A DNA stretch of 64,000 bases, from positions 720,130-784,129 of the forward strand of contig NZ_QGTR01000001.1 in the NCBI RefSeq assembly GCF_003182275.1, read 5' to 3'. Under the pieces are notes generated by a model, which saw nothing but the letters and a program-made list of their open reading frames with translations, made no database searches and had not been told where the DNA came from. The translations under genes were made by a program, and so were the position numbers. This document shows, piece by piece, positions 9,993 to 63,031 of the stretch. Position 1 is the stretch's first letter; every line of letters starts with the position of its first letter. The DNA is from Hoeflea marina. GTDB lineage: Bacteria; Pseudomonadota; Alphaproteobacteria; Rhizobiales; Rhizobiaceae.

Positions 9993-10442
9993 TCAGGCGG
10001 CCGCCTCGGCGGCGCGGCGGGCGTCGATCTGGTCGAGGCAGTCGACCACGGCATCGAAGGTCAGCATGGTCGAGGCATGGCGCGCCTTGTAGTCGCGCAC
10101 TGGCTCGAGGAATTTCAGGTCGGCAAAGCGCCCCTCGGGCGCAGGCCCGTTTTCCTTCAGCATGGCGCGCATCTCCTCGCGCACCGCGCGCAGTTCGGCC
10201 GCCGTGGCGCCGATGATGTGACGCGCCATGATTGATGACGACGCCTGGCCCAGCGCGCAGGCTTTGACGTCGTGGGCGAAATCGGTGACAGTCTGTCCAT
10301 CCATTTTCAGCCAGACACGAACTTTTGATCCGCACAGCTTGGAATGCGCCGACGCGGTGGCATCGGCGTCCTCGAGCGTACCGATCCGTTGGATATTGCC
10401 GGCAAAATCGAGAATTCTGGCATTGTAGATATCATCAATCAT
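9993..10442 (-). CDS. Iron-sulfur cluster assembly scaffold protein (IscU/NifU N-terminal-like)
   Basis: A 149-residue protein starting MIDDIYNARI at 10442. Cysteines in SKLCGSKVRV, VKACALGQASSSI and VVDCLDQ match the three cluster-ligand positions of the NifU_N/IscU fold, with the usual glycine/aspartate around the first replaced. In rhizobia this homologue lies next to folE. It would hold a nascent Fe-S cluster; the usual HSC chaperone motif LPPVK is absent, which separates it from classical IscU. It is divergent from folE. Confidence 0.8.
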   Translation of the reverse strand: MIDDIYNARILDFAGNIQRIGTLEDADATASAHSKLCGSKVRVWLKMDGQTVTDFAHDVKACALGQASSSIMARHIIGATAAELRAVREEMRAMLKENGPAPEGRFADLKFLEPVRDYKARHASTMLTFDAVVDCLDQIDARRAAEAAA

Positions 10443-10709
10443 GCTGCTCGTCCGGTTGCTGGAATTCCTGCGACGTTGGATGGCGGTGGCGCATCTCGAC
10501 GTCCTCGTTCGAATGACTATATAATAACGAAATCGGGTTCGGCAAAATCTGTTTGGCCGGGTCCGATGGGAAACCGTGCCGGAGGGTGTCGAGCCCGAAA
10601 GCCCCGGAGCCCGCCAGAACCGGTGAACGAGGTCGTCTCGGAGGTCTTGTGCGTGTGGTCCGAACAACGCCATTGACGTATTGGGTGAAATTCCCGCAGG
10701 AGACAGACC

Positions 10710-11324
10710 ATGGACGCGATCATCAAGAATTTCCCCAGCGATGCCGTCGACACTCGGCCGACCCTGGCCGAGGCAGAGGAGGCCGTGCGCACGCTGCTGC
10801 GCTGGGCGGGAGACGATGTCAGCCGCGAGGGCCTGGCCGACACGCCCAAGCGCGTCGCCGCCTCCTACCGAGAGCTCTTCTCCGGATATGATCAGGACCC
10901 CGAGGAGGTGCTCGGCCGCACCTTCGAGGAGGTTGCGGGCTATGACGACATCGTGCTGGTCAAGGACATTCCGTTCTTCTCCCACTGCGAGCATCACATG
11001 GTGCCGATCATCGGCAAGGCGCACATCGCCTATCTGCCGGGCGGCAAGGTGCTGGGCTTGTCCAAGATCGCCCGCGTTGTCGAGATTTTCGGCCGCCGCC
11101 TGCAGACCCAGGAAGCCATGACCGCTCAGGTGGCCAGTGCCATCGACGGAACCCTGCAGCCCCGCGGCGTCGCCGTGATGATCGAGGCGGAGCATCTCTG
11201 CATGGCCATGCGCGGCATCCAGAAGCAGGGCTCGACGACCATCACCACCACCTTCACCGGCGCGTTCAAGTCCGATCCGCATGAGCAGGTGCGCTTCATG
11301 ACGCTGATCCGCGGGCGCGGCTGA
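10710..11324 (+). CDS. folE: GTP cyclohydrolase I (type IA)
   Basis: A 204-residue enzyme that converts GTP to 7,8-dihydroneopterin triphosphate, the first step of folate synthesis. Zinc ligands are visible as Cys93 and His96 in SHCEHHM and Cys164 in [19 protein letters not shown] and [15 protein letters not shown] are family blocks. The ATG has GGAGACAGACC upstream. It is followed by hisI after 31 bases, probably as one unit. The 267-base divergent region 10443-10709 contains an AT-rich TATAAT-like stretch near 10518-10527 that may serve a promoter. Confidence 0.97.
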
Positions 11325-11355
11325 ACGCCGACACCGGCCCATTGCTGCAGGACCC

Positions 11356-11811
11356 ATGACCGACACCTTCTCCGCACCGCCATCCGACAAGGCCCGCCTT
11401 GAGGAAGGATCCGAACTGACGCCGCGCTTCGATGCAGCGGGTCTCGTCACCGCCGTGGTCACCGATGCGGGCGACGGCGCAGTCCTGATGCTCGCCCACA
11501 TGAACGCGGAGGCCCTGCAACTGACCATCGAGACCGGCCTCGCCCACTACTGGAGCCGCTCGCGTGACCGGCTGTGGAAGAAGGGCGAGACCTCCGGCAA
11601 CATGCAAAGGGTCGAGGAAATCAGGCTCGACTGCGACCAGGACGCAGTGCTGCTGAAGGTTCGTGTCACCGGCCACGACGCCACCTGCCACACCGGCCGG
11701 CGATCCTGCTTCTACCGCCGGGTGGAAAAGACGGCGGGGGGCGGTGTGCATCTGGTTTCGGATGCGGAGCCGCCGAAATTCGATCCGGACCAGGTCTACG
11801 GAAAGAATTAG
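11356..11811 (+). CDS. hisI: Phosphoribosyl-AMP cyclohydrolase
   Basis: A 151-residue enzyme for step 3 of histidine biosynthesis, opening the purine ring of PR-AMP. Metal ligands are in place: Asp92, Cys93, Asp94 and Asp96 in LDCDQDA, then Cys111 (DATCHTG) and Cys118 (RSCFYR). The [18 protein letters not shown] block is diagnostic. It is monofunctional: no PR-ATP pyrophosphatase (HisE) domain follows. It is downstream of folE and separate from any his cluster in this window. Confidence 0.97.
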
Positions 11812-11915
11812 CTCGGGCGAATAAAATCCGTGCAACCTAATCGGCATTCAGGCTTTCTAAACCATATATTGGTTGAATGGCCCTTCGGGGGAGTGTTCAG
11901 CGAAAGGGAATGAAA

Positions 11916-12884
11916 ATGCTGAACTGGAGCACCAATCGAAATTCCGAGCCGGCCGATGCGGCGGAGATCGGCAGCGTTGTGCCTCCGCAGGCCTTCGACC
12001 TCAACAAGCCCACGCAGCCCAAGCCGCGCATCGCTCTCGCCCTCGGCGGCGGCGCGGCCCGCGGATGGGCCCATATCGGCGTGCTCAGAGCGCTCGATGA
12101 GGCCGGCGTCGAGATATCGATGATCGCCGGCACCTCCATCGGCGCCCTGGTCGGCGGATGCTACCTTGCCGGAAAACTCGACGAACTCGAAGAGTTCGCC
12201 CGCAGCCTGACCATGCGCCGCATCGCCGGCCTGCTCGATTTCGCCATCGGCAGCGGCGGCCTGTTCGGCGGCATGCGCCTCAACAACCGGATGCGCGAGC
12301 ATCTCGTCGGCATCAACATCGAGGACATGAGCCGGCCCTTTGTCGCCGTGGCGACGGAGATCAACACCGGCCATGAAGTCTGGATCCACTCCGGTTCGCT
12401 GATGACCGGCATCCGCGCATCCTATGCGCTGCCCGGCATTTTCGAGCCGGTCCGCTGCAACGGGCGCACGCTGATGGACGGCGCCCTGGTCAATCCCGTG
12501 CCGGTATCTGTCTGTCGCGCCTACGAGCAGCCGCTCGTCGTGGCGGTCAATCTGCATTATGACCTCTACGGCCGTTCCGCGGTGGTCAAGCACACAGCCA
12601 GCGAGCAGGCGGTCGAAATGCCGAGCGCGGATCGTCGCATGCAGCCGCGCGAAAGCCGCATCGGCATGACCACCGTGATGGTGCAGGCGTTCAACATCAT
12701 CCAGGACCGCATTTCGCGCGCCCGCCTGGCGGGCGATCCGCCGGACCTGTCGCTGCAGCCGAAACTCGGCGACATCGGCCTGTCGGAGTTTCATCGCGCC
12801 GGCGAAGCCATCGATCGCGGCTACCAGGAGGCCAAGGCAAAGCTGGTCGAGATCAAGCGCATGCAGGTGGTTCTGTCGGCCTGA
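11916..12884 (+). CDS. Patatin-like phospholipase family protein
   Basis: A 322-residue patatin/NTE-type serine hydrolase. The oxyanion motif GGGAARGWAHIGVL lies at residues 44-57, the nucleophile Ser74 in GTSIG and the catalytic Asp188 in DGA. Start choice: ATG 11916 has AAGGGA six bases upstream; ATG 11910 sits too close to it. A short perfect inverted repeat AACCATATATTGGTT just upstream overlaps the likely -10 area. The substrate is probably a phospholipid or lysophospholipid. Confidence 0.9.
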   Translation: MLNWSTNRNSEPADAAEIGSVVPPQAFDLNKPTQPKPRIALALGGGAARGWAHIGVLRALDEAGVEISMIAGTSIGALVGGCYLAGKLDELEEFARSLTMRRIAGLLDFAIGSGGLFGGMRLNNRMREHLVGINIEDMSRPFVAVATEINTGHEVWIHSGSLMTGIRASYALPGIFEPVRCNGRTLMDGALVNPVPVSVCRAYEQPLVVAVNLHYDLYGRSAVVKHTASEQAVEMPSADRRMQPRESRIGMTTVMVQAFNIIQDRISRARLAGDPPDLSLQPKLGDIGLSEFHRAGEAIDRGYQEAKAKLVEIKRMQVVLSA

Positions 12885-47745: not shown

Positions 47746-48678
47746 TCAGTCCTTGATAGGCTCTAGCAGTTTGACGATCTCGTCGCGGTGCTGCTCGTAG
47801 CGGCTCGGCAGTTTCAGCGCTTCGCCCAGATGCGCGGTGTCCTCGTCCCGGTCGAAACCCGGTTCGTTGGTGGCGACTTCGAACAGCACGCCGCCGGGTG
47901 TACGGAAATAGATCGCCCAGAAATAGTCACGGTCGATGACCGGCGTGACCTGATATCCGGTGTCCATCAGCGCCTTGCGAACTTCGAGCTGTGCCGCACG
48001 GTTTTCGACAGCAAAGGCGATGTGATGCACCGACCCCGCGCCCTGCCGGGCGGCATTGGCTTGCGGCACCGCTTCGATGTCGATGAAATCGGCGCCATTG
48101 CCGCCTTCCATTCCGAACCGTGTCCAGCCGTCCTTGCTGTCGACCTTCTGGTAACCCATGAAGCCGAGAAGCTCGGCGGTTGCGCCGTCATCCTTCAGTC
48201 TGAGGCTTGCGCCGTGAAAGCCCTTGATGGCTTCCGCCACGCCGACATCGCCGTGGCCCCAGCCATCGCGGCCATCGCCATCGGCTTCGATGAGCGAAAA
48301 GGCGTCATGATCGGGTCCCTGAAAACGAAGGCGCTTCTCGCCGAACACTTCGGTTTCCGAAAGCCCCGTGACATCAAGGCCTTCAAGCCGCTGCTTCCAG
48401 TAACCAGCCGATCCTTTCGGAATGGCGAAATAGGTTTCGCCGACTTCGCCGGCGCCGGGCCGTCCGGCCACGATGTTCGGGAATGGAAAATAGGTCATCA
48501 CCGAACCGGGGGTGCCGACTTCATCGCCGTAATAGAGATGGTAGACTTCCGGGGCATCGAAGTTGACGGTCTTCTTGACGCGGCGAAGGCTAAGCGTCTT
48601 GGTGAAGAAATCGCTGTTCTGCTGGGCGTTGGCAGCCATGGAAGTCACATGGTGCAGCCCTTTGATCTGAGTAATCAT
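47746..48678 (-). CDS. Ring-cleaving dioxygenase of the VOC superfamily (MhqO-like)
   Basis: A 310-residue Fe-dependent protein with tandem vicinal-oxygen-chelate halves. IKGLHHVTSM and SVHHIAFAVEN supply metal histidines and GVLFEVATNEPG the glutamate. Related enzymes (MhqO, PcpA) open hydroquinone rings. Start: ATG 48678 has AGGGA 9 bases upstream; ATG 48684 is too close to it. It is divergent from the LysR regulator. Confidence 0.9.
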   Translation of the reverse strand: MITQIKGLHHVTSMAANAQQNSDFFTKTLSLRRVKKTVNFDAPEVYHLYYGDEVGTPGSVMTYFPFPNIVAGRPGAGEVGETYFAIPKGSAGYWKQRLEGLDVTGLSETEVFGEKRLRFQGPDHDAFSLIEADGDGRDGWGHGDVGVAEAIKGFHGASLRLKDDGATAELLGFMGYQKVDSKDGWTRFGMEGGNGADFIDIEAVPQANAARQGAGSVHHIAFAVENRAAQLEVRKALMDTGYQVTPVIDRDYFWAIYFRTPGGVLFEVATNEPGFDRDEDTAHLGEALKLPSRYEQHRDEIVKLLEPIKD

Positions 48679-48763
48679 GGTCATGATCCCTTGCGTTGAG
48701 ACGCCTTGGCGTCAAGTGCATGCGGTGAAGATGATGCCGGGCGCGTGGAAAGTGAATAGAAAT

Positions 48764-49739: not shown

Positions 49740-51242
49740 TCAGCGCATGACGAACGGATTGGGCACATCCTTGTTGAAGGCCATCCAGACGCTCTTGGTC
49801 TCCATATAGTCGTAGATCGCGTCCTGGCCGCTCTCCCTGCCCTGACCCGAATTCTTGAAACCGCCAAACGGCATCATGTAGCTCACAGCGCGATAGGTGT
49901 TGGTCCATATGGTGCCCGCGCGCAGCCGTCGGGCAGCGGTGAAGGCGCGTGCCATGTCGGAGGTCCATACGCCCGCGGCAAGCCCGTAAGGCGTGTCGTT
50001 GGCGATTGAATAGGCCTCGTCATCATCCGAGAAGCGGATCACCGACAAGACCGGGCCGAACACCTCCTGCTGGGCGATCTGCATGTCGTTGCGGACGCCG
50101 GCAAACACCGTCGGCTCGATGAACCAGCCGTCGCCGCATTCGGGCCTGTCCGCGGGCTTGCCGCCCATCATGCAGGAGGCGCCCTCGCCCTTGGCCATCT
50201 CGATCATCGACAGGATGCGGTTGTACTGCGGCTGCGTGGTCACGGGCCCGACCTGGGTCGAGAGGTCCATCGGGTCGCCCATCCGCGCGGTGGCGGCAAG
50301 GGCGAGGAACTTCTCCAGAAACTCGTCATGGATGCTGTCATGCACCAGCAGCCGCGAGCCGGCGATGCAGGTCTGGCCGGTCGCGGCGAAGATGCCAGAC
50401 ACGACGCCCTTGACCGCGTTGTCGAGATCCGCATCGGCAAAGACCAGTTGTGCGGACTTGCCGCCCAGTTCCAGCGTCAGCCGCTTGAAGTTTCCGGCCG
50501 ACTTTTCCATGATCTTGCGGCCGGAGAATTCGCCGCCGGTAAACGCAATCTTGTCGATGCCGGGATGGGTGGACAGCGCTTCGCCGACATCCTGGCCGAA
50601 GCCGGTGACGACATTGACCACGCCTTTGGGGAATCCGGCCTCCTCGATCAGCCGCATCAGTTCCAGCGTCGAAGCCGAGGTGAATTCCGACGGCTTGACG
50701 ACCATGGTGCAACCGGCTGCCAGCGCCGGCGCCATCTTCCAGGCAAGCAGCAGCAGCGGCGAATTCCATGGCGTGATCGCCGCGACCACGCCGATCGGCT
50801 CATGCCGCGTGTAGGTGAACATGTCGGGCTTGTCGATCGGCATCACCGCGCCCTCGACCTTGTCGGCCATACCGCCGAAATAATAGAACCACTGCGGGAT
50901 GTAGCCGACCTGACCGCGCATCTCGGCATAGAGCTTGCCGTTGTCCTGCACTTCGACGGAGGCGAGATGATCGGCGTCACGCGCGATCAGGTCTCCCAAC
51001 CGCCGCAGCAGGTGTCCGCGCTGGGTCGCATTGATTTTCGACCATTCGCCGGTGTCGAACGCCGCACGCGCCGCAGCCACCGCCTTGTCGACGTCACGGG
51101 CATCGCATCTGGGCATGTTGGCCCAGTGTTTGGCGGTGAAGGGATCGGTTGTTTCAAACACGTCGCCGGATTCCGCGGCGACCCAGTTGCCATCGATAAA
51201 GCAGCGGTAATCCTTGATGCCTTCAATTCTGCCCATGGCCAT
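49740..51242 (-). CDS. NAD(P)+-dependent aldehyde dehydrogenase
   Basis: A 500-residue ALDH. The catalytic Cys292 is in GQTCIAGSR, the general base Glu258 in LTLELGGKS, and Asn160 in ITPWNSPL. It would oxidise an aldehyde to an acid. It is the last gene of the ABC/SSL operon, 69 bases after the alcohol dehydrogenase; together they form an alcohol-to-acid route. Substrate class not certain (aromatic, sugar-derived or aliphatic aldehyde). Confidence 0.95.
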   Translation of the reverse strand: MAMGRIEGIKDYRCFIDGNWVAAESGDVFETTDPFTAKHWANMPRCDARDVDKAVAAARAAFDTGEWSKINATQRGHLLRRLGDLIARDADHLASVEVQDNGKLYAEMRGQVGYIPQWFYYFGGMADKVEGAVMPIDKPDMFTYTRHEPIGVVAAITPWNSPLLLLAWKMAPALAAGCTMVVKPSEFTSASTLELMRLIEEAGFPKGVVNVVTGFGQDVGEALSTHPGIDKIAFTGGEFSGRKIMEKSAGNFKRLTLELGGKSAQLVFADADLDNAVKGVVSGIFAATGQTCIAGSRLLVHDSIHDEFLEKFLALAATARMGDPMDLSTQVGPVTTQPQYNRILSMIEMAKGEGASCMMGGKPADRPECGDGWFIEPTVFAGVRNDMQIAQQEVFGPVLSVIRFSDDDEAYSIANDTPYGLAAGVWTSDMARAFTAARRLRAGTIWTNTYRAVSYMMPFGGFKNSGQGRESGQDAIYDYMETKSVWMAFNKDVPNPFVMR

Positions 51243-51311: not shown

Positions 51312-52439
51312 CTAGATGAAGTCGATAATCTGGCGGATCGCCTCGCCGCTCGCCAGCCTGTCGAACCCCTCGTTGATGTCGTCGAGCACGATGCGGTGGG
51401 TGAGCAGCTTGTCGACCGGCAGCTTGCCGCGCTTGTAGAGCCCGAGGAAGCGCGGGATGTCGCGCGAGGGCACGCCTGAGCCGAGATAGCTGCCTTTCAG
51501 CGTCCGCTCTTCGGCGACCAGCGAGACCGCCGGAATCGACAACATTGCCTTGGGATTGGGCAGGCCTGCGGTCACCGTGGTTCCGCCCCGCCGGGTGATC
51601 GCATAGCTGAATTCCAGCGCCTTGACCGAACCGGCGAATTCGAGCGCTGTCTCAACCCCGCCATTGGTCGCTTCCCGCACCTTGGCGACGACATCGGGGT
51701 CGTCGGCCCGGAAGATGTGGGTGGCGCCGAGTTCAAGCGCAAGCTCGAGCTTCTGCTGGAACATATCAACGGCGACCACGGTCTCGGCGCCTGCGGCAAC
51801 CGCGCCAAGCACTGCCGCCAGGCCGACGCCGCCAAGGCCGATTACCGCGGTGGTCCCGCCGGGTTTGACGTCGCCGCCATTGAAGACGGCGCCGGCACCT
51901 GTAAGCACGGCACAACCCATCAGAGCTGCAATGTGCAGCGGCACATCTGGGTCGATCTTGATCAGCGAATTGCGCGACACGGTGGCATATTCGGCAAACG
52001 ATGAGACGCCGCAGTGATGGTGCACCGGTTCCCCATGACGCCGCAGTCGGAAGGCTCCGCTCATCAGGTCGCCCGCGCCGTTGTGCTGGGCTCCGGGCTC
52101 GCAAAGCGCGGGCCGACCCTGGGCGCAGGGTGCGCAATGGCCGCAACTGGGGACGAACACGCAGACCACGTGATCGCCGGGCACGAGATCATGCACATGG
52201 GCGCCGACCTCCTCGACGATGCCCGATGCTTCGTGGCCGAGCGCCATCGGCACCGGCCTGGGGCGGTCGCCGTTGATGACCGACAGATCCGAGTGGCAAA
52301 GACCGGCGGCCACCATCTTGATCAGCACTTCGCCGGGCCCCGGGCCTTCGAGATCGATTTCCTGCACCCGCAATGGAAGCGAGACCGCATAGGGTCCTTC
52401 GCGTCCGATTTCCTCAAGTACTGCCGCCCTGATCTTCAT
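51312..52439 (-). CDS. Zinc-dependent alcohol dehydrogenase
   Basis: A 375-residue MDR enzyme close to class III/formaldehyde-type ADHs. The catalytic zinc region is GLCHSDLSV and GHEASGIVEEVG; the structural zinc is in CGHCAPCAQGRPALC; NAD-binding is VIGLGGVGLAAVLG. It oxidises an alcohol to the aldehyde used by the neighbouring ALDH. It follows the ABC ATPase gene by 37 bases. Confidence 0.94.
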   Translation of the reverse strand: MKIRAAVLEEIGREGPYAVSLPLRVQEIDLEGPGPGEVLIKMVAAGLCHSDLSVINGDRPRPVPMALGHEASGIVEEVGAHVHDLVPGDHVVCVFVPSCGHCAPCAQGRPALCEPGAQHNGAGDLMSGAFRLRRHGEPVHHHCGVSSFAEYATVSRNSLIKIDPDVPLHIAALMGCAVLTGAGAVFNGGDVKPGGTTAVIGLGGVGLAAVLGAVAAGAETVVAVDMFQQKLELALELGATHIFRADDPDVVAKVREATNGGVETALEFAGSVKALEFSYAITRRGGTTVTAGLPNPKAMLSIPAVSLVAEERTLKGSYLGSGVPSRDIPRFLGLYKRGKLPVDKLLTHRIVLDDINEGFDRLASGEAIRQIIDFI

Positions 52440-52476: not shown

Positions 52477-53973
52477 TCAATGCACCGCGGCGTACATGAT
52501 CTTTTCTTCCGTCGCCTCGTCCACCGAGAATTCCTCGACGATCCGGCCCTGACGCGAAACCAGGATGCGGTCGGCCAGATTCAGGATTTCCGGAAGATAG
52601 GACGAGATCACCACCACCGCCAAGCCGGCATCGGCGAGCTCGTTGATAACGCGATGCAACTCTGCAATGGCGCCGACATCGACGCCGCGGGTGGGTTCGT
52701 CGAAGATGATCAACTTCGGCAATTGGACCAGCGACCGGGCGATGACCACCTTCTGCTGGTTGCCTCCCGACAGTTCAATGACCCGCGCATTGGCGTCGAT
52801 GGCCTTGACGTTGAGCTTGGCTGTCCATTCATCGGCAAGCTGCATCATCTCGGAATGGCTGATCACGGAGCGCTTGTTCAGGTCTGCCGAAAGCAGGTTC
52901 ATGTAGATGTTCTCGGCGATCGACTTGGTCTCGAAGAAGCCCTCGATCTTGCGGTCCTCGGTGACATAGACCACCCCGTCCTTGACCGCCGGACGCGGCA
53001 CCCGGTAGCGCACAGACCTGCCTTCGAGCCGCACCTCGCCACCATGGAAGAAGTCGCGCTTGATGACGCCCGAGATGATCTTCGCCGTTTCCGTCCGGCC
53101 CGAGCCGATCAGCCCGAAAATGCCGGTGATCTGTCCGCCATAGACCGAGAACGAGGTGTTGCGCACCATCTTGCCCATCGACAGGTTCTGCACCGACAGC
53201 ACCTTGCGGCCATAGGGACGTACCGTCCGCTTCCTGTCGCGACTGTAGAGCTCTTCCGACAGCGTGCGGCCAACCATGGCGGAAATGATCGTGTCGCGAT
53301 CGAAATTGGAGGCCTCGTCGGTGACGACATGTTGCCCGTCGCGCAGGATGGTGATCCGGTCGGATATCTCCAGTGCTTCCTCCAGCGCGTGACTGATGAA
53401 GATAATTGATACCCCGTCCCTCTTCAGCCGCTTGATAAGCGAAAAGAAATGGTGCTTTTCCTCCGGCGTCAATGTCGCCGTCGGCTCGTCAAATATGATG
53501 ACCCGGGCCTTGTGGTGAACGGCGCGGGCGATCTCCACCATCTGCTTCTGGGCTGCACCCAGCTGAGAGACATACATGGTCGGATCAACGCCGAAATTCA
53601 GCGACTGCAGAAACTGCTGGGCGGCGATGTAGATGCCGCGCAGCCGGTTGAGAAACTTCTCGTTGCCGAGATAGATGTTCTGCGCCACCGTGAGCGACGG
53701 GATCAGGCTAGTCTCTTGAAAGACCATGGCAATGCCGTTGTGCAGCGCTTCGGCCGGACTGCCGAAGACGCGCGGCTTGCCGTCGAACAGCACTTCGCCG
53801 GAGCTCGCCTCATAGACGCCGGCCATGATCTTGGTCAGGGTCGACTTGCCGGCGCCGTTTTCGCCGAGCAGCGAATGCACCTCGCCCGGCATCAGCGTGA
53901 AATCGACGCCGCGGATGGCTGCAACGCCATGAAATTCCTTGAAGACAGTCTTGAGTTCGAGCACAGGCGTCAT
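52477..53973 (-). CDS. Sugar-type ABC transporter ATP-binding protein (RbsA-like, two ATPase domains)
   Basis: A 498-residue double ATPase. The first domain has Walker A GENGAGKST, signature QLGAAQKQMVEIARAV and Walker B VIIFDEPTATL; the second has degenerate Walker A LIGSGRTE and signature LSGGNQQKVVIARSL with LIIFDEPTRGVDVGA. This is the normal build of ribose/xylose-type importers. Overlaps the upstream SSL gene by four bases (ATGA). Confidence 0.95.
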   Translation of the reverse strand: MTPVLELKTVFKEFHGVAAIRGVDFTLMPGEVHSLLGENGAGKSTLTKIMAGVYEASSGEVLFDGKPRVFGSPAEALHNGIAMVFQETSLIPSLTVAQNIYLGNEKFLNRLRGIYIAAQQFLQSLNFGVDPTMYVSQLGAAQKQMVEIARAVHHKARVIIFDEPTATLTPEEKHHFFSLIKRLKRDGVSIIFISHALEEALEISDRITILRDGQHVVTDEASNFDRDTIISAMVGRTLSEELYSRDRKRTVRPYGRKVLSVQNLSMGKMVRNTSFSVYGGQITGIFGLIGSGRTETAKIISGVIKRDFFHGGEVRLEGRSVRYRVPRPAVKDGVVYVTEDRKIEGFFETKSIAENIYMNLLSADLNKRSVISHSEMMQLADEWTAKLNVKAIDANARVIELSGGNQQKVVIARSLVQLPKLIIFDEPTRGVDVGAIAELHRVINELADAGLAVVVISSYLPEILNLADRILVSRQGRIVEEFSVDEATEEKIMYAAVH

Positions 53974-55055
53974 CTCAAGCCCCCCGGATGCGTGAGTTCG
54001 ATGGCGACGACTTCGTTTCCGCCCTTGCTTGCCAGCCAGAGATGATTGCCGTTCTCGACGGCGGCCATGATGCCGTGACGCCGGCCGCCGGCTCGGCTGT
54101 GAAAGCTGCGGACCGGTTCGAAATCAGGAGTGAGTTCGACGACAAGACCGTAGGAGCGCGTCGGTGCCCAGGGCTTGAGGATCCCCATCTGCTTGAGCGC
54201 TCCGCCCTGCATCGGCTCGTTGAAGGATGCGCCACTGCGCAATGCCGGCGCGATCCAGAATTCCGGCGCGACCTCCGCCATCATCGCCTTGCGGTATCCC
54301 GGCTCGCGCAGCACGAATTCGATCAACTGGCTGCGCGGCGCAAACAGCGAAAGCCAGTAGCCGCCACGGGAATTGCGCGAGATGCGCGCCGGATATCCCG
54401 GAAGATCCTCCATGACCTGACCGACCCGTTTGCCCGCGGGAGACAGCCTCATCAGATGCTTGCGCCAGCTCTCGCTGATGACGATGTTGCCGTCCGCCTC
54501 GACGACAATGCCGTTGGGAAAGGCGAGATCACGGGCAAGCCGCTCGGCGGCGCCGGTGGAAATATCGAGCGTCCAGATCTCGCCCGATTTGCCGGCATTT
54601 AGAAGGTCGCGCTGCCAATCGCCAATCGTGTTCCTGGTCGATCCGATGCAGACCAGCAGCGTCCTGTCGTTGGCAAATGCCATCGCCGTAACGCAGGTCC
54701 AGGCCTGCTGGCCAACCGTTGCGACACCGCCGTCCACAAAGCTGATGCCGCCGGGCTCGCTGGCAATGGCGATCAATCCCGCCGGTGACACTGCGAGCGC
54801 GGTAATTGTGCCCGTAGCTTCGAATGCCACAACACCGATGCCATTCTCATCGACCTGGAACAGCCGGCTCGCTGCCGAGTAGAAAATTGTTCCATTGGCG
54901 ACGATGATATCGTCAGGCTGATCAGCTTGAATGCCTCGGGGAGCCTCATCGAGCCTGTTGTTGGGCTTGAGCGCGCCGTCAAGCGGCGGCACGGTGACGG
55001 CGGCTGTGCCACGGCCGACGAAGCGGTCGGCCCAGTCTCGCAATGCGCCGATCAT
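53970..55055 (-). CDS. Free-standing SMP-30/strictosidine synthase-like (SSL) protein
   Basis: A 361-residue six-bladed beta-propeller with no signal peptide. The SSL hallmark LPGYPARISRNSRGGYW is followed by LFAPRSQLIEF; a metal-binding propeller pattern is in LAFPNGIVVEADGNIVIS and MAAVENGNHLWLASK. SSL/SMP-30 proteins include lactonases and esterases. It is sandwiched, with 4-base overlaps on each side, between the permease-SSL fusion gene and the ATPase gene. It is paralogous to the fusion's C-terminal half. Confidence 0.85.
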   Translation of the reverse strand: MIGALRDWADRFVGRGTAAVTVPPLDGALKPNNRLDEAPRGIQADQPDDIIVANGTIFYSAASRLFQVDENGIGVVAFEATGTITALAVSPAGLIAIASEPGGISFVDGGVATVGQQAWTCVTAMAFANDRTLLVCIGSTRNTIGDWQRDLLNAGKSGEIWTLDISTGAAERLARDLAFPNGIVVEADGNIVISESWRKHLMRLSPAGKRVGQVMEDLPGYPARISRNSRGGYWLSLFAPRSQLIEFVLREPGYRKAMMAEVAPEFWIAPALRSGASFNEPMQGGALKQMGILKPWAPTRSYGLVVELTPDFEPVRSFHSRAGGRRHGIMAAVENGNHLWLASKGGNEVVAIELTHPGGLR

Positions 55056-57175
55056 GAGCTCTGCCCCCAATAGTTCCTGTAGCCGCTCCAGCTCGTATCC
55101 CTGCCGGGAAGGCGGATCCGGCCGATGCGGTTGTTGGTGATGCCGCCGAGATAGAGATAGCCCTTGTGCTCTCGCATCGAGGTGATCATCGGGTGGTTTG
55201 CCGAATGCTGGTCCCACAGCGATTCAAGCACCTCGCCCTTGTCGTTGAAGCGGATGACGCAACCGACATTGAGGTTGGGGTAGAGCCACTGGTCCGGCGC
55301 AATGCGGCGCGCCATCCGCTTGCGGAAGGCCGGCATCCGGAGCGCCACGTCGAGCGCGGGCGAGCGCATGCCCATGATGGCGGCCCAGTAGGTACCGTCG
55401 GAAGCGCGGTTGATGTTGTCGGGATAGCCCGGCAAACGGTCTAGAACCGGTTCGACCCGGCCTGCCTTCGGGCCGTCGAAATAGTAGCGGCTGATGCGGC
55501 AGGCCCAGCTTTCGGCAAACAGGATCGACTGACCGTCCTGGGATGTGCAGATGCCATTGGGGAAGATCAGGTTGCGTACTGCAGTATGGGTCTTGCCGGT
55601 CTTCGGGTCGTAGCAGATGATACGGCCATTGCCGCGGCTTTCGAGCGCATCCACCGGCCAGTCGTGCATCTCGTAGCGCACGGTGGCTTCGGAAAAGAAC
55701 ACCCGGCCATCGGGCGCGATGTCGAGATCGTCGGCGAGCCTCAGCCGGGAATCATCAACCACAGAGAAGGTCGACCGGTTGGTTTCATCCGTCACCTTGG
55801 TGACTGTGCGGTCGGGAGCAATCTTGTAGAGCCCCATGCCACCGACGCAGACCAGCAGGTTGCGCTCCCGGTCCCATGACATGCCCAGCGGCGAGCCGCC
55901 GATATGGGCAAAGACCTCGGACTGCTGGTAGTCCGGCGCCAGGAAGCGGACGATGTCGCCGTGGCGCGTGCCGCAATAGAGATGGTCGTCTTCATCAAGG
56001 ATCACGTCCTCGGGCGACTCCACTTCGCCAAGCCCGATGATCTCGACATCGTTGAGCCGGTCGTTGATGGCAAAGGCTGTGTTGTCCCTCGGATCGGTCG
56101 AAACCGGCTTCGGCAACTCTATGATGGTCGGCGAGACGTAGACCTTGGACAGGAGCTTGTCGCGGTTCTTGAGCCATTTGACGTCAACGAAGACGGCGAA
56201 AATCAGGGTCAGGCCAAGGACCATGGGGCCGGAGCCGCTGTTGAGGCCGAGGCGCAGGACGCCGTTGGTCAAGAGCAGAACGATGAGCGCGCCGATCAGT
56301 GCCTTGACGATCGAGCCGCGCCCGCCGCCGAGGCTGTTGCCGCCGAGCACGGCGGCCGTCAGTGCCGCAATTTCCAGACCCATTCCTGTGTCGGTGCCGG
56401 CGCCCGACAGGCGCGCTGCGTAAAGCACCCCCGAAAGACCGCACAGCATGCCGGAGATCGTGTAGGCGGCGCAGACGGTGCGGCGAACCGGCAGGCCGAT
56501 ATTGTGGGCTGAGCGGCGCGAGCCGCCGATGGCCATCAGCCGCCAACCTGGGCGCGAGCGCGTCAACAGGATATGGCCGATCACGGCAACGATGACTAGC
56601 ATGACAAAGGAAAACGGGATGCCGAAGAAGCCGCCGAGCCCCATCAGGTCCCAGGCAGGCGATTCATAGAAGCTGACCGACATTGCCTGCGCATATTGCA
56701 GCAGCAGCATGTCGACCACCGCGCGGACGATGATCAGCGTCACAAGCGTGGTCAGGAATGCCCGTAGCCGCATGTAGCCGATGAGAAATCCGTTCAGAAG
56801 GCCGACGCTGCCGCATATCAGCACCACCACGGGTGCCGCCAATTCCACCGGCCAGCCGCCCAGATTGAGCAGAGCCAGCATCATGAAATTGCCAAGCGCA
56901 AAGTTGGAGCCGACCGACAGATCGATGCCGCCAACGACGATCACCACCATCATGGCGATGCCGACCAGTCCGAATTCGCCGAACTGGCGCGCGGTGATCG
57001 ACAGGTTGGAGCTCGAGTAGAAATTGGGTATCAGCGACCCGAAGACCAGCACCACGCAGACCAGCACCAGGAAGGGAATTGCATTGTCGATCCACTTCTT
57101 GGAGAGGATCTCGCCGATCACATGGTCGGGAATGAAGCGGTATCTGAGCTTGGTTAGGTTACTCGCCGACGCCAA
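55052..57175 (-). CDS. ABC permease fused to an SSL beta-propeller domain
   Basis: A 707-residue fusion. Residues 1-340 are an RbsC-type permease with ~10 membrane segments (GGIDLSVGSNFALGNF; GGNSLGGGRGSIVKALIGAL near 278-297). After a linker of ~45 residues, residues ~385-700 form a strictosidine synthase-like propeller (VESPEDVILDEDDHLYCGT; RNLIFPNGICTSQDGQSIL; LPGYPDNINRASDGTYWAAI). The frame is continuous with no frameshift. RbsC permeases end in the cytoplasm, so the propeller should be cytoplasmic and tethered to the channel exit. Likely role: act on the substrate, for example by lactone hydrolysis, as it enters. Confidence 0.9.
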   Translation of the reverse strand: MASASNLTKLRYRFIPDHVIGEILSKKWIDNAIPFLVLVCVVLVFGSLIPNFYSSSNLSITARQFGEFGLVGIAMMVVIVVGGIDLSVGSNFALGNFMMLALLNLGGWPVELAAPVVVLICGSVGLLNGFLIGYMRLRAFLTTLVTLIIVRAVVDMLLLQYAQAMSVSFYESPAWDLMGLGGFFGIPFSFVMLVIVAVIGHILLTRSRPGWRLMAIGGSRRSAHNIGLPVRRTVCAAYTISGMLCGLSGVLYAARLSGAGTDTGMGLEIAALTAAVLGGNSLGGGRGSIVKALIGALIVLLLTNGVLRLGLNSGSGPMVLGLTLIFAVFVDVKWLKNRDKLLSKVYVSPTIIELPKPVSTDPRDNTAFAINDRLNDVEIIGLGEVESPEDVILDEDDHLYCGTRHGDIVRFLAPDYQQSEVFAHIGGSPLGMSWDRERNLLVCVGGMGLYKIAPDRTVTKVTDETNRSTFSVVDDSRLRLADDLDIAPDGRVFFSEATVRYEMHDWPVDALESRGNGRIICYDPKTGKTHTAVRNLIFPNGICTSQDGQSILFAESWACRISRYYFDGPKAGRVEPVLDRLPGYPDNINRASDGTYWAAIMGMRSPALDVALRMPAFRKRMARRIAPDQWLYPNLNVGCVIRFNDKGEVLESLWDQHSANHPMITSMREHKGYLYLGGITNNRIGRIRLPGRDTSWSGYRNYWGQSS

Positions 57176-57273: not shown

Positions 57274-58302
57274 TCAGCGAAGGATCTTCGCGTATTGTTC
57301 GGGATCCCAGCAGGTGCCGGCCTGAACGTCGTCCTTGGTCATCACCCGTGTCGGCGAATAGATCTGGGTCTTGATGGCTCCCGCGCCCTGCCCGTTCTGC
57401 AGCGCCATCATGATCGCCGTCCAGGCATCACGGCCCATGCCGGGGGCGTTGTAGTTGATGGCCGCCGAATAGGTGCCGTCTTCAAGGCCGTTGCACATGC
57501 TCTGTGCGCCGCCACCCGAGGTGATGAAGTACACCTGGCCCTGCTTGCCGGCCTGCTTGATTGCCGCGCCGGTTCCGATTCCCTGGCCATCCCAGACGTC
57601 GATGATGCCGCACATGTCGGGGTTCTGCTGCAGCGCGGTCTCGGTGATCGCACGCGCCTTGGATGCATCCCAGTCGGCAGCCTGGCTGGAAACGATCTGG
57701 ATTTCCGGATGCTCGTTGAACACCTTCATCATCCCTTGCACCTGATAGTAGCTGACGCCGCCGGTAAGCACGCCCTGCACGATTGCCACCTTGTGGGACG
57801 TGTCGGTCCCGGAGCCGCATTTCTCCAGCATCATGTTCGCCGCCTGCTCGCCCATGGCAATGAAGTCGGGGCCGACAAATGCATCGGTCTGGACCGCACC
57901 CTGCATGTTGAGCTGGACCACCACGATGCCGGCAGCAGTCGCCTGCTTCATCAGGCGGGCGAGCGACTGCATGTCCGGGTTCTGGGTGACGATGACGTCG
58001 GGATGTTCGGCGATCAGCGCAGTCATGCCCTGCGCCATGGCATCGGTGTTCCAGTTCGGATCCTGCGAGGTGAACTTCATTCCGTAGCGTTCGGACTCGG
58101 TCTTGACGACGCCGCCCCAGGCCTGCGCCAGGTCAAAGCCGATTGAGATTGGCAGATAGGCAATCGTCTTGCCTTTCAGCGATTCCAGAGCCGGACCGCG
58201 ATAGGGATCGTTGAGATCGTCGGCGGCATGGACCGCCGTTGCGCCGATGGCGAGAGCGGCAAGCGCCGCAGCCGTCAATTTCATGAAACCAGTCTTACCC
58301 AT
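57274..58302 (-). CDS. Sugar-type ABC transporter substrate-binding protein (periplasmic-binding-protein type 1)
   Basis: A 342-residue exported protein (signal peptide FMKLTAAALAALAIGATA to VHA). The PBP1 fold shows KGKTIAYLPISIGFDLAQA, ALIAEHPDVIVTQNPDMQSL and IIDVWDGQGIGTGAAIKQAG. Ligands of this fold are sugars, polyols or related alcohols and lactones. Second gene of the operon, 46 bases after the second permease. Confidence 0.93.
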   Translation of the reverse strand: MGKTGFMKLTAAALAALAIGATAVHAADDLNDPYRGPALESLKGKTIAYLPISIGFDLAQAWGGVVKTESERYGMKFTSQDPNWNTDAMAQGMTALIAEHPDVIVTQNPDMQSLARLMKQATAAGIVVVQLNMQGAVQTDAFVGPDFIAMGEQAANMMLEKCGSGTDTSHKVAIVQGVLTGGVSYYQVQGMMKVFNEHPEIQIVSSQAADWDASKARAITETALQQNPDMCGIIDVWDGQGIGTGAAIKQAGKQGQVYFITSGGGAQSMCNGLEDGTYSAAINYNAPGMGRDAWTAIMMALQNGQGAGAIKTQIYSPTRVMTKDDVQAGTCWDPEQYAKILR

Positions 58303-58348: not shown

Positions 58349-59335
58349 TCAGATGTCCCCCTGCTGGCCGGTCTGTTCATCGCGGGGGTTGACGATACTG
58401 TCGACGACGATCGCAAGCAGCAGGATGAGGCTCTTGATGACGTTCTGAATTGTGTACTGGACGTCCATGATGGTCATGCCGTTCATCAGCACGCCGATCA
58501 GCAATGTCCCGACGATCACGTTGCGCACATTGCCGCGGCCGCCGGACAGGCCTACGCCGCCCAGGACGACCACCAGGATGACGTCGTAGATCATGTTGGA
58601 ATTGACCACGCGGGTGTTCATCGCTTCGACCGAAGTGGCGGTAATGATGCCCGCGACAAAGGCGATGCCGCCTGAAATGACATATTGCAGCGCCAGCATC
58701 GGGCGTACCGAAATGCCGCCGATGCGCGAGGCCGGAAGATTATCGCCGATGGCATAGATGAAGGCGCCGAGCTTGGTGTATTTCAGGAACAGGAACACCA
58801 CCAGCGCCATGGCTGCCGCCACCACGATCGGCATCGGCAGGCCGAGGAAATGCCCCTGCCCCAGCTCGACGATCCAGCCCATATCCTTGGGCATGTAGAC
58901 CACATCGGTACCGGTGATCATGTGGGCACGGCCGAAGCCATAGATGAAGGTGGCCATGGCCAGAGTGGCAAACAGCGGCGGAATCTCCGCATAGGCGACG
59001 AGGATGCCGGTGATAAGTGCGATGCCGAGGGCGAACAGCAGTCCGGAGGTCATCGCGGCGTAGACCGGCATGCCCTGCGAGACCAGTTGCATGGCCCAGG
59101 CGACCGAGATGGCCATGGTTGCCACCAGCGACAGGTCAATGCCGCGGCCGAGCACGACGATGAGCATGCCAAGCCCCAGAATGCCGAGCACGGCGACGCT
59201 GCGAACCAGGGACAGAAGGTTGCCGGCAGCCAGAAAATTGTTGAGGGTGAGCGAGAACACCACAAACAGCAGCACCGTCAAGAGAAAGACGATTCTCTCC
59301 TGGTTGAGCAAGCGAAACGCCTTGCCGATATCCAT
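58349..59335 (-). CDS. Sugar-type ABC transporter permease (RbsC-like)
   Basis: A 328-residue permease, start MDIGKAFRLLNQERI with GGGGGAGGACAG upstream. It carries VVLGRGIDLSLVATMA and VVLGGVGLSGGRGNVRNV, the RbsC-family signatures. It is first in the operon and lacks the propeller fusion seen in its partner permease, so the importer is a heterodimer with one decorated subunit. Confidence 0.94.
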   Translation of the reverse strand: MDIGKAFRLLNQERIVFLLTVLLFVVFSLTLNNFLAAGNLLSLVRSVAVLGILGLGMLIVVLGRGIDLSLVATMAISVAWAMQLVSQGMPVYAAMTSGLLFALGIALITGILVAYAEIPPLFATLAMATFIYGFGRAHMITGTDVVYMPKDMGWIVELGQGHFLGLPMPIVVAAAMALVVFLFLKYTKLGAFIYAIGDNLPASRIGGISVRPMLALQYVISGGIAFVAGIITATSVEAMNTRVVNSNMIYDVILVVVLGGVGLSGGRGNVRNVIVGTLLIGVLMNGMTIMDVQYTIQNVIKSLILLLAIVVDSIVNPRDEQTGQQGDI

Positions 59336-59695: not shown

Positions 59696-60682
59696 TTAAG
59701 CCTGGTGCCCGAATGTATCGGGCAAGCTCTCCGGCAAGGCCCGTGCGCCACGCCAGCGGCCGGTCTCGACGAGACCGAGAAGCGTTTCCCGGCACAGTGC
59801 TTCGATCACCGCCACGGCGTTCGGCATCGGCCGGTCGGAAGCGTGCACCAGATAGACGTCGCGCTGCAGCTCCGGCTTGCGGATAGGCCAGTGCTTGAGC
59901 CGTCCGTCCTGCACTTCGCGGGCGATCGCGTTGAAAGGCAGGATCGAATAACCCATCCCCTCCTCCACCAATTCCTTGATGTTGCCGTAGGAGTCGACGT
60001 CGATGATGGTGTTGAGCGGCAGGCTGCTTGCGCCGGCCACACCCTCAAGCAGTTCCCGCAGTCCGTGGTTCTCGCTGGGCAGGATCAACGGCAATTGCGA
60101 TACCTGCCGGTAGGTGATGGGACCGTCCGACGGCTGCTTGATGTCCTGCATCGCAGAGACAGGGCCGAGCAGGCACAGCTCTTCCGTCAGCACCGAGTGC
60201 GACGCCAGACTGCGGTCCTGGACCGGGATGTAAAGGACTGCCAGATCGATCTTGTTCTCGCGGATCCATTCGGTGATGAATCCGCTCATGGCCTCGGCAA
60301 TCCTCAGCTTGATGCGCGGATAGCGCTTCTTGGCGGCGATGATCAGCGGCACCGAGAGGATTTGGCTTATGGTTCCCGGCAGGCCCAGCCGCACTTCGCC
60401 ACTGGGTTCGACCTCGTGGCCGCGGATTTCCTCCGCGGCGAATGCGAACTGATCAATGATGACACGGGCATTGCGCAGCAGGATTTCACCTGCCTCGGTG
60501 GGCAGGACGCCATTCGGACTGCGGAAAAGCAGCTGCGTGCCAAGATCGGCCTCCATGTTGCGGACATGCAGGCTCAATGCCGGCTGGGCTACGTTCAGCG
60601 TCAGCGCCGCTTTCGAAAACGAGCCCTGTTCGACGATCGCCACGAAATAGCGAAGCTGGCGGAGATCCAAAGGCGCACCCAT
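59696..60682 (-). CDS. LysR-family transcriptional regulator (Nac/CbbR-like)
   Basis: A 328-residue LTTR starting MGAPLDLRQLRYFVAIVEQG. HTH residues continue SFSKAALTLNVAQPALSLHV and the segment LFRSPNGVLPTEAGEILLRN; the effector domain spans ~95-300. It lies between the CoA-transferase gene (upstream, same strand) and the ABC/SSL operon, so it could control either. An in-frame start at 60715 is less likely. Confidence 0.9.
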   Translation of the reverse strand: MGAPLDLRQLRYFVAIVEQGSFSKAALTLNVAQPALSLHVRNMEADLGTQLLFRSPNGVLPTEAGEILLRNARVIIDQFAFAAEEIRGHEVEPSGEVRLGLPGTISQILSVPLIIAAKKRYPRIKLRIAEAMSGFITEWIRENKIDLAVLYIPVQDRSLASHSVLTEELCLLGPVSAMQDIKQPSDGPITYRQVSQLPLILPSENHGLRELLEGVAGASSLPLNTIIDVDSYGNIKELVEEGMGYSILPFNAIAREVQDGRLKHWPIRKPELQRDVYLVHASDRPMPNAVAVIEALCRETLLGLVETGRWRGARALPESLPDTFGHQA

Positions 60683-60781
60683 GATTTTTATATGGCTCGC
60701 CGGATTGGCAACCATTTTTATTATACCGGGGTCAGAACTCGATTTGTCAAGCCGGGCAGATTTGCTCGCGCTGCGACCGGA

Positions 60782-61921
60782 TCATTCGGCTACAGGACCA
60801 CGCTGAAACTCGGCGCGCAGCCGATCGGTGTCCTCGCCGAGCCCGGGGACCTTGCCGAGCGCCGGCTGATGTCCATTAACGAGGACGCCCGGCGCCAGGA
60901 TCCTGACCGGACCGGATGGTGTATCGATGGTCGAATAGCGGTTCTGGGGGTGTGAGGCGACGTCTTCGAGCGTGCTGATCCGGCCATAGGCAATGCGGGC
61001 ACCCTCAAGACGGTTTGCCATTTCATCGCGCGACAAGGCTGCCACGATCGGGGCCATTTCCGCATCGAGTGCCGCCCGATTGGCGACCCGCCGGCTGTTG
61101 CTCTTGAACCTGTCGTCGGTGGCAAGATCCGGGCGTCCGAGTGCTTCCTTGCACAGCACTTGCCACTCGCGCTCGTTCTGGATCGAGAACAGGATCGACT
61201 TGCCGTCGCCGCATGCATAGGCGCCATAGGGCGCGATCGTCGGATGATTGAGGCCGCTGCGTTCGGGCACCTTGCCACCATAGACATATTGCAGATAGGG
61301 CACGTTCATCCAGTCCGAAAGCGCATGGTAGAGCGAGACGGCGATGTGACGGCCCTCGCCGGTGACCGAGCGGGCATAGAGCGCCTGCATCACCGATTGC
61401 GTCGCCGTCATGCCGGCGGCGATATCGCAGACCGAGACCCCCACCCTCGCCGATCCATGTTCGTTGCCGGTGATGGCCGATAGACCGCTTTCGGCCTGCA
61501 CCAGGAGGTCATACGCCTTGAGATCGCGAAACGGACCCTCGTCGCCATAGCCGGAAATGGAGCAGGTGATCAGCCGCGGATAGCGCTTTCTCAGCTCTTC
61601 TGTTCCAAATCCCAGCCGGTCGATGACGCCCGGCGCCAGATTCTGGATGAATATGTCGGCCTCGGCGATGATGGCCGAAAGCACTTGCTTGTCCGCGTCC
61701 AGCTTCAGATCAAGGCAGAGCGATTCCTTGCCGCGGTTGAGCCAGACGAAGTAAGCGCTTTCGCCATGCACGAGATGATCATATTCCCGGGCGAAATCAC
61801 CTTCCGGCCGTTCCACCTTGATGACGCGGGCACCGGCATCGGCAAGCTTGCTGGAAAGGTAGGGCGCGGCCACTGCCTGTTCGACTGAAACGACCAGCAA
61901 GCCGTCGAGATCCTTGTTCAT
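60782..61921 (-). CDS. CaiB/BaiF (class III) CoA-transferase
   Basis: A 379-residue enzyme starting MNKDLDGLLVVSVEQAVAAP. Family blocks: LADAGARVIKVERPEGDFAR, LNRGKESLCLDLK and KAYDLLVQAESGLSAITG (catalytic Asp). It resembles itaconate/mesaconate/succinyl-type transferases, and its divergent neighbours are a CitE-like lyase and an MmgE/PrpD protein, so it probably activates a C4-C6 di- or tricarboxylic acid. Donor unproven. Confidence 0.92.
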   Translation of the reverse strand: MNKDLDGLLVVSVEQAVAAPYLSSKLADAGARVIKVERPEGDFAREYDHLVHGESAYFVWLNRGKESLCLDLKLDADKQVLSAIIAEADIFIQNLAPGVIDRLGFGTEELRKRYPRLITCSISGYGDEGPFRDLKAYDLLVQAESGLSAITGNEHGSARVGVSVCDIAAGMTATQSVMQALYARSVTGEGRHIAVSLYHALSDWMNVPYLQYVYGGKVPERSGLNHPTIAPYGAYACGDGKSILFSIQNEREWQVLCKEALGRPDLATDDRFKSNSRRVANRAALDAEMAPIVAALSRDEMANRLEGARIAYGRISTLEDVASHPQNRYSTIDTPSGPVRILAPGVLVNGHQPALGKVPGLGEDTDRLRAEFQRGPVAE

Positions 61922-62185
61922 CGCCAATGCCCATGCTTGTGATATGTGCGTCCAGCCCCCTCCGCGACGGCTGTCTCCCGGGCGGATCATTGCCCATTAT
62001 TGCTATCACCACAAATAACACTGAAATGGGTAGGCGATAACAACACGCTATAGACGAGCCTCTCCCTCTGCAATCCGGCCGGCATAGTGGAACGCGATGG
62101 TTGCCTTATCAAAATGCTATTGGCAGGCGGAGGCTTGGACCGCCTAACGTCCTATCTCCCGCTTCTTCCGTATCGCGACACCCAA
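61922..62185. promoter_or_regulatory. Divergent promoter region between CoA-transferase and lyase genes
   Basis: 264 bases separate the two start codons. An AT-rich segment at about 61990-62050 contains short arms CCCATT (61993-61998) and AATGGG (62025-62030), a weak LysR-type site. Nothing else recognisable is present. Confidence 0.35.
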
Positions 62186-63031
62186 ATGCCCTTGTTGATC
62201 GAGACCCCATCGCTATTCCTTTTCGTGCCGGCGGACCGTCCAGACCGATATGCCGGCGCGTTGGAGTCCGGAGCCGACGCCGTGGTCATCGATCTCGAGG
62301 ACGCGGTGGCGGCCGAGACCAAATCGATTGCCAGATCAATGCTTGTCGACCGGCTTTTGTCCGTGCCGGTGGCGACGGTACCGGTGCTGGTGCGCGTCAA
62401 CGGCGCCGGGACGTCGTTTCACGCGGATGATCTGGCGGCGGTTTCCTGCCTGCTGCAGGCTGGCCGGATGGCGGGGGTGATGCTGCCGAAGGCGGAGTCG
62501 GCCGGGCATATCCGCGCGATTCGCGCCGGACTTGCTCTGCCAGCCGCGATTGTCGCCCTCGTGGAGACAGCGGCCGGGCTAGCCCTCGCCGACGAGATTG
62601 CCGGCACGGCGGACAGGATTGCCTTCGGCTCGGTCGATTTTGCCGCCGACATCGGCTGCGACCATAGCCGCGAGGCCCTCCTGCATGCCCGCTCCCGCCT
62701 GGTCATCGCCGCGCGCGCGGCGGGAATGCCGGCCCCCATCGACGGCGTCACCCGCGCGATCCGCGACGAGGAGGCCATCGAGAGCGACGCGCGTCATGGC
62801 GCCGGGCTTGGCCTGAAGGGCAAGCTGCTGATCCACCCCGCCCAGATCGCGCCCGCGCGCAGAGGATTCGCACCCACCGAAGCCGAAGTGGCGTGGTCGG
62901 ACCGGGTTCTGGCGGCCATGGGCAATGGCGCCGCCGTATCCCTTGATGGACAGATGGTTGATGCGCCGGTGATTGCCCGCGCCCGCCAGATTCGCAACAA
63001 TCACGACCGAACCTCGAACGGACACCCATGA
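62186..63031 (+). CDS. HpcH/HpaI (CitE-like) CoA ester lyase
   Basis: A 281-residue TIM-barrel lyase. SLFLFVPADRPDRY, VVIDLEDAVA, AFGSVDFAADIGCDHSRE and GKLLIHPAQIAPA are the family marks (compare the paralogue at 2496-3395). Start: ATG 62186 gives standard length; an upstream ATG is in frame but adds an unrelated leader. Its stop overlaps the MmgE/PrpD start (ATGA at 63028-63031). Substrate likely a citramalyl- or malyl-CoA-type ester. Confidence 0.87.
   Translation: MPLLIETPSLFLFVPADRPDRYAGALESGADAVVIDLEDAVAAETKSIARSMLVDRLLSVPVATVPVLVRVNGAGTSFHADDLAAVSCLLQAGRMAGVMLPKAESAGHIRAIRAGLALPAAIVALVETAAGLALADEIAGTADRIAFGSVDFAADIGCDHSREALLHARSRLVIAARAAGMPAPIDGVTRAIRDEEAIESDARHGAGLGLKGKLLIHPAQIAPARRGFAPTEAEVAWSDRVLAAMGNGAAVSLDGQMVDAPVIARARQIRNNHDRTSNGHP

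Follow-up and report, generated by a model that had tools for sequence, protein, structure and literature searches.

An ABC importer permease fused to a strictosidine-synthase-like propeller, and a second propeller lacking the metal-ligand set, in a five-gene cassette of Hoeflea marina

Analysis of a 64,000-nucleotide stretch of the Hoeflea marina genome (contig NZ_QGTR01000001.1, positions 720,130 to 784,129; here called the window) revealed an ATP-binding cassette (ABC) importer operon in which one permease carries a strictosidine-synthase-like (SSL) β-propeller at its C-terminus. The five genes of this cassette lie on the minus strand in the order permease 1 (the unfused partner, 58349-59335), a sugar-type periplasmic binding protein (Peripla_BP_4; 57274-58302), the permease 2-SSL fusion (55052-57175), a free-standing propeller of 361 amino acids that we term SSL' (53970-55055), and an RbsA-type double ATPase (52477-53973). 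For permease 1 and the binding protein, the Met start was chosen within a longer open reading frame. In the window, the fusion and SSL', and likewise SSL' and the ATPase gene, share four bases, with SSL' beginning in an ATGA that includes the stop codon of the fusion, and their translation is therefore probably coupled. A double-ATPase subunit of the RbsA type and a sugar-type binding protein thus stand in the same operon, as in importers of the CUT2 type. Both permeases and the binding protein scored below every NCBIfam cut-off, and the ATPase reached none among the best 25 of 189 matches.

The fusion is encoded by a frame of 707 codons that begins with TTG, contains no internal stop, and is preceded, as judged by eye, by an AGGGGA-like Shine-Dalgarno sequence a few bases upstream. 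Its product consists of a ten-helix RbsC/CUT2-type permease (residues 1-337; 56165-57175, minus strand), a 40-residue junction and linker with a conserved basic start and a variable middle (residues 338-377; 56045-56164), and a complete six-bladed SSL propeller (residues 378-707; 55055-56044). Pfam places BPD_transp_2, the permease domain expected of a CUT2 importer, at residues 60-327 (E 2.5e-33), followed by SSL_N at 367-411 (E 1.9e-12), SGL at 406-602 (E 1.3e-14), and Str_synth at 482-568 (E 3.6e-19). An AlphaFold2 model, with a mean predicted local distance difference test score (pLDDT) of 81.2 and a predicted template modelling score (pTM) of 0.57, contains ten long helices and a propeller that starts at residue 378. 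The best Foldseek matches of this model (best 50 of 1249) are strictosidine synthases and rice TGW6, followed by the lactonase RPA3624 and DFPase, and the fused domain is a six-bladed propeller of the strictosidine-synthase/DFPase kind. By sequence, TGW6 is the closest solved homologue, yet a distant one (phmmer, 77.8 bits). An earlier note, made from the letters of the window, had described the uninterrupted frame and its two parts, and its gene coordinates and propeller bounds (residues 370-707) agree with the domain matches and the model.

The topology of the permease was assessed from the charges of its loops. With helix boundaries set by hand from the model, and with R255 and R308 at the outer helix ends excluded, 17 lysine or arginine residues fall in loops of the N-terminal side and none in those of the other; ten helices with basic residues in the N-terminal-side loops alone indicate that both termini are most likely inside. 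The C-terminus of the fusion, and hence the propeller, is most likely located in the cytoplasm, so that the sequence rules bear out the orientation proposed in the earlier note.

The frame was followed through the junction in related loci. A scan of contigs yielded relatives of the fusion at 42 loci in named genomes, with 54-93% identity in the best segments, and a single frame spans the junction in 41 of these. In the one exception (L043), a contig start cuts the frame and the propeller alone is visible, while in L047 the frame spans the junction and splits further on. The latter fusion, from Pseudophaeobacter leonis (10001-11964), is spread over two overlapping frames, which may reflect a sequencing error or decay. 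Among 69 distinct fusion sequences, K336 and Y346 are each found in 68 and P349 in all, and the distance from R338 to E389 is kept at 47-51 residues throughout. No ATG occurs between residues 318 and 432 of the window's fusion, and the propeller is therefore without an ATG start of its own in this region. Nonsynonymous rates (dN) are far lower than synonymous rates (dS) in both halves. In the comparison with Hoeflea BRH_c9, for instance, dN and dS are 0.030 and 0.654 in the permease part and 0.031 and 0.544 in the propeller part; both are under strong purifying selection, with the 40-residue junction looser (0.108 and 0.635). The earlier note had proposed that fusions be sought across genomes and the junction compared, and had named a hidden stop or frameshift near residue 345 as fatal to its reading; the uninterrupted frames of the 41 loci refute such an error.

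Four metal-ligand positions have been given for TGW6, an indole-3-acetic acid (IAA)-glucose hydrolase (PMC10958001), and all four align with residues of the fused propeller. The putative ligands are E389 (56009-56011, aligned with Glu-59), D482 (55730-55732, Asn-167), N540 (55556-55558, Asn-226), and N587 of the D586-N587 pair (55415-55420, Asn-272), all on the minus strand, where TGW6 residues are numbered by adding a hand-counted offset of 28 to the chain index. By alignment, the fused propeller keeps this four-residue ligand set of the N6P superfamily in 68 of the 69 distinct sequences; the earlier note had named a propeller with neither metal site nor activity in any homologue as a refutation of its proposal. 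Positions 389/482/540/586/587 read E-D-N-D-N in 62 sequences, E-N-N-D-N in six, and A-A-T-V-G in one (L103); the 62 carry in D482 a second acidic putative ligand that is without counterpart in TGW6. Left out of these counts, and of those for SSL' below, are three cut or split fusion frames shorter than 600 amino acids (L034, L043, and L047), two SSL' fragments that score below 200 bits (in L044 and L047), and from each set one duplicate sequence; four further alignments each took a subset of the sequences available, 35, 23, 31, and 20 in number. According to section 5 of a review (PMC4215206), four metal ligands appear to be retained by most SSL proteins by far, which makes these more likely to be hydrolases, the true strictosidine synthases being outliers without them. 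With its ligands present, the fused propeller fits on the hydrolase side of the SSL family, and SSL' does not.

SSL' adjoins the fusion in 68 of 71 loci, a set that comprises the window, a second H. marina locus (L004), the 42 scan loci, and 27 stretches fetched by place (L093 lies on the same contig as L029). In the other three loci (L016, L025, and L042) the contig stops inside the fusion or directly behind it, and in L044 the SSL' of a second fusion is cut by the stretch end. The metal-ligand set is retained in none of 68 SSL' sequences: the residue aligned with position 587 is Arg in 62 of them, and Asp is never found at position 586 (one row is gapped at 586-587). Residues 276-297 of SSL' (54165-54230, minus strand) form a loop with a pLDDT below 50 that is yet strongly conserved, P281, G291, and P295 being invariant in 31 sequences, and we regard this loop as a candidate contact site. 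A tethered propeller that is apparently active is thus accompanied by a free one devoid of the metal site. In a tree of 88 propellers, for which the rows were thinned to 22 of the 69 fused and 49 of the 68 SSL' sequences, the fused propellers and SSL' each form one side of a branch (both with 100/100 support), and the 17 other bacterial SSL proteins are separate. The simplest reading is one fusion event and a long co-inheritance of the pair.

The cassette is complete, with its five genes, in 64 of the 71 loci (63 by a length-filtered count, plus L092, whose filtered-out SSL' scores 310 bits), and the remaining seven are cut by an end. The 42 scan loci belong to genera of Alpha-, Beta-, and Gammaproteobacteria, with classes taken from the record names. 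A profile built from the junction alone gave full-length matches in 10 of 61 genomes, the own genome included (14 places), the weaker matches in this set covering the first 41-82 positions and looking like ordinary permeases; across the phylum it matched 11 of 398 genomes, again with the own genome (18 places, best ten candidates scored per genome). Among plasmids, 15 of 72,556 records contain a match that covers 80% or more of the query. When 385 genomes of the class were searched with a fused-propeller profile, 17 places scored above 500 bits, spread over 10 genomes that include the H. marina genome itself; 16 of these places lie in frames of 710-755 amino acids, and one in a 559-amino-acid frame that starts at the first base of its stretch. 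The next-best match, at 249 bits, is a free protein of 358 amino acids, and with the best five candidates scored per genome no unfused ancestor or other unfused member of the fused clade was found in the 385 genomes. The cassette ATPase is likewise set apart, with at least 546 bits as against at most 385 for other RbsA-type ATPases among the matches listed from 12 genomes.

H. marina itself possesses a second complete cassette on another contig (L004, 3266-10006), consisting of permease 1, binding protein, a fusion of 709 amino acids, SSL', and ATPase. This fusion is about 41% identical to that of the window, and BKACE-like and thiolase-like genes lie nearby. A third SSL protein of the same genome (L005, 4809-6050) is unfused and has the ligand set E-N-N-D-N. 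Genome G759 carries at least five fused-propeller frames on contigs C25, C26, and C41, three of them within 18 kb on C25, and a tandem pair of binding-protein genes occurs inside one cassette (L037, 7824-9933). A phage origin was considered and set aside, as 11 of 50,697 phage records match and none covers more than 80% of the query; an anti-phage role was likewise set aside, PADLOC giving no match for the fusion or SSL'.

The components of this system are of known kinds. CUT2 importers such as RbsABC, AlsABC, AraFGH, and YtfQRT-YjfF share with it a Peripla_BP_4 binding protein, two RbsC-type permeases, and a double-domain ATPase of the RbsA type; here, however, an SSL propeller is attached to the C-terminus of one permease, and a further SSL protein is encoded in the operon. 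The N6P/SSL hydrolases (TGW6, DFPase, Drp35, RPA3624, and paraoxonase) have in common with the fused domain a six-bladed propeller and the aligned ligand positions, but in the present case the propeller is attached to a membrane permease. Regulatory C-terminal domains of the MetN/ModC type also represent an extra cytoplasmic domain on an importer subunit, although these are small ligand sensors on the ATPase, in contrast to a propeller on the permease. The rhamnose importer RhaSTPQ is of the CUT2 type. In rhizobia, this importer depends on a catabolic enzyme: in the passages of PMC9025865 concerned, RhaK is required for rhamnose transport, and parts of RhaK contacted the ATPase RhaT in two-hybrid tests. 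As presented there, RhaK is a separate kinase that binds RhaT, whereas the hydrolase-like domain described here is covalently joined to the permease. The author of the earlier note knew of no characterised example, and our search of the open-access literature, which left subscription papers and domain-architecture databases outside, returned none, nor any description of a permease-fused propeller with a metal-less twin. As far as that search goes, the combination is undescribed.

ABC importers are usually thought to deliver their cargo unchanged. We propose, at about an even chance, that this CUT2 importer has a built-in cytoplasmic, metal-dependent esterase or lactonase that hydrolyses cargo on arrival, with SSL' as a non-catalytic partner. 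The binding protein would capture a carboxylic ester, acyl-sugar, or lactone, which the permease 1/permease 2 pair, powered by the RbsA-type ATPase, would move inward. The propeller on the cytoplasmic end of permease 2 would then hydrolyse it in the metal-dependent manner of N6P superfamily enzymes, to which esterases and lactonases belong, and the resulting carboxylate or hydroxy acid would be passed to adjacent enzymes of oxidation and CoA activation. SSL', presumably a catalytically dead relative, may serve the transporter structurally or as a regulator, plausibly from a position below permease 1. A more specific arrangement, which we offer tentatively and consider somewhat unlikely, is a permease heterodimer capped on the inside by the two propellers, the active one on permease 2 and the metal-less SSL' under permease 1, so that cargo would pass directly from the channel into the active propeller and be hydrolysed before release. 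If this were true, cargo could not flow back or inhibit the carrier, and import and the first catabolic step would be performed by one machine. The earlier note had envisaged a single catalytic domain at the channel exit; its fusion and inside C-terminus are supported, and the propeller has a conserved metal-ligand set. The note missed both SSL' and the second cassette, and with SSL' included the likely mechanism shifts from one enzyme domain to a pair of active and inactive propellers.

The genes surrounding the cassette were examined in this light. A zinc-type alcohol dehydrogenase (51312-52439) and an aldehyde dehydrogenase (49740-51242) adjoin it on the ATPase side, both on the minus strand and both family-library matches, with a VOC-family (glyoxalase/dioxygenase-like) protein beyond the latter (47746-48684, minus strand). 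On the other side lie a LysR-type regulator (59696-60715, minus strand, named by eye from its sequence), a family III CoA-transferase (60782-61990, minus strand, family-library match), and an HpcH/HpaI lyase (62087-63031, plus strand), whose nearest NCBIfam model, RipC, was matched below its cut-off. Across the 71 loci, clusters of these neighbours recur as follows: aldehyde dehydrogenase in at least 26, alcohol dehydrogenase in at least 25, LysR (by eye) in at least 22, CoA-transferase III in at least 18, and HpcH-type lyase, acyl-CoA dehydrogenase, and short-chain dehydrogenase/reductase in at least 11 each, all lower bounds given the many short stretches and the crude gene picking. Other cassettes are accompanied by an AraC regulator, an AMP-binding ligase, and an enoyl-CoA hydratase, or by BKACE and thiolase genes (the thiolase named by eye). 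With eight probes for acyl-CoA-pathway genes, hits were obtained at 13 of 28 cassettes, compared with 3 of 40 loci for other CUT2 importers in the genomes concerned (Fisher p 3e-4). The cassettes in this comparison were L077-L103 minus L093 (26 loci), L004, and the window, the 42 scan loci being left out; the 40 controls were hand-picked from the list of RbsA-type ATPases, and cassettes were centred on the fusion, controls on the ATPase. This enrichment, for which a carboxylate product and its subsequent activation to the CoA ester would account, lends support to the hydrolase proposal and falls short of proof.

Several observations weigh against that proposal. No activity, substrate, or structure was found for any member of the family. 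The placement of the permease relative to the propeller is uncertain in the model (pTM 0.57), and the permease fold rests on sequence, since the best 50 of the 1249 Foldseek matches are all propellers. In L103, every one of the five ligand positions is substituted (AATVG), yet the fusion, SSL', and the other cassette genes are retained, from which a role of the propeller beyond catalysis seems possible. The acyl-CoA probes registered no gene at 15 of the 28 cassettes, and the signal comes mainly from the AMP-ligase (9/28 versus 0/40) and enoyl-CoA hydratase (8/28 versus 1/40); CoA-transferase III is hardly enriched (2/28 versus 1/40), and the FAS1-like dehydratase shows no enrichment (0/28 versus 0/40). 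Furthermore, the probes had been taken from genes next to cassettes, and the loci, being related, are not independent.

Other explanations differ widely in how well they meet the data. That the fusion is an artefact of sequencing or assembly, or a split gene, can practically be dismissed, as one frame runs through the junction in 41 of the 42 named-genome loci and purifying selection continues through it. Many SMP-30/paraoxonase-like proteins act extracellularly, and a propeller on the periplasmic side that acts on cargo ahead of its uptake would be in keeping with them; the ten helices and the 17-to-0 distribution of basic residues (again without R255 and R308) render this highly improbable. 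Similarly, the prominence of strictosidine synthases among the best 50 of 1249 Foldseek matches might suggest a metal-independent Pictet-Spenglerase or synthase, which we hold to be very improbable because the fused clade keeps the metal ligands that true strictosidine synthases are without, according to the passages on this point in PMC4215206.

Two further possibilities were weighed. The propeller may be an active hydrolase for which the fusion merely fixes amount and place, transport and hydrolysis being independent of each other. The conserved ligands would be expected in this case, the variable middle of the linker suggests a flexible tether, and the junction is the least constrained part of the protein; against it stand the narrow range of the length from R338 to E389 (47-51) and the lack of any unfused version in the 385 genomes (best five candidates each), given that co-expression from the operon would suffice for such an enzyme, and we regard it as unlikely. 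Alternatively, the propeller may serve mainly as a ligand-sensing or structural gate, as in trans-inhibition, with a metal site for binding and not for turnover. This would account for SSL', which has the site in 0 of 68 sequences yet stands beside the fusion in every contig long enough to show it, and for the retention of a ligand-less fusion in L103, and the transport effect of RhaK, which the passages cited above (PMC9025865) present as separable from its catalysis, provides a precedent. The five ligand-set positions are, however, nearly invariant in the fused clade, and its sole ligand-losing member, the most divergent fusion (L103, 7034-9112, minus strand), sits on a long branch as expected for lost constraint, which suggests relaxation; a gate of this kind appears about as unlikely as the simple tether. 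L103 represents a natural experiment for a non-catalytic function of the propeller.

The question of which compound a built-in hydrolase would act upon was approached from two sides. The nearest solved relatives of the binding protein, MSD3 and proteins of the D-allose and ribose types, are too distant to name a ligand. The window's neighbourhood of alcohol and aldehyde dehydrogenases, family III CoA-transferase, and RipC-like lyase, to which related loci add acyl-CoA dehydrogenase and the FAS1-like dehydratase, would fit, as a speculation, the release of a branched C5 dicarboxylate from a lactone or an acyl-glucose; compounds of the tulipalin/tuliposide kind are an example of such a class. 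Other loci have quite different neighbours, and the substrate is left at this speculative level.

The fusion has also been deposited under names that reflect one of its parts. Two plasmid records (L134, 8001-11230; L135, 8025-11200) label it 'SMP-30/gluconolactonase/LRE family protein', and SSL' is a 'hypothetical protein' in the former and a 'strictosidine synthase' in the latter. The propeller-only label hides the permease, and better names would help the annotation of transporters in Pseudomonadota. The family would, moreover, offer a direct test bed for whether import and the first catabolic reaction can coincide.

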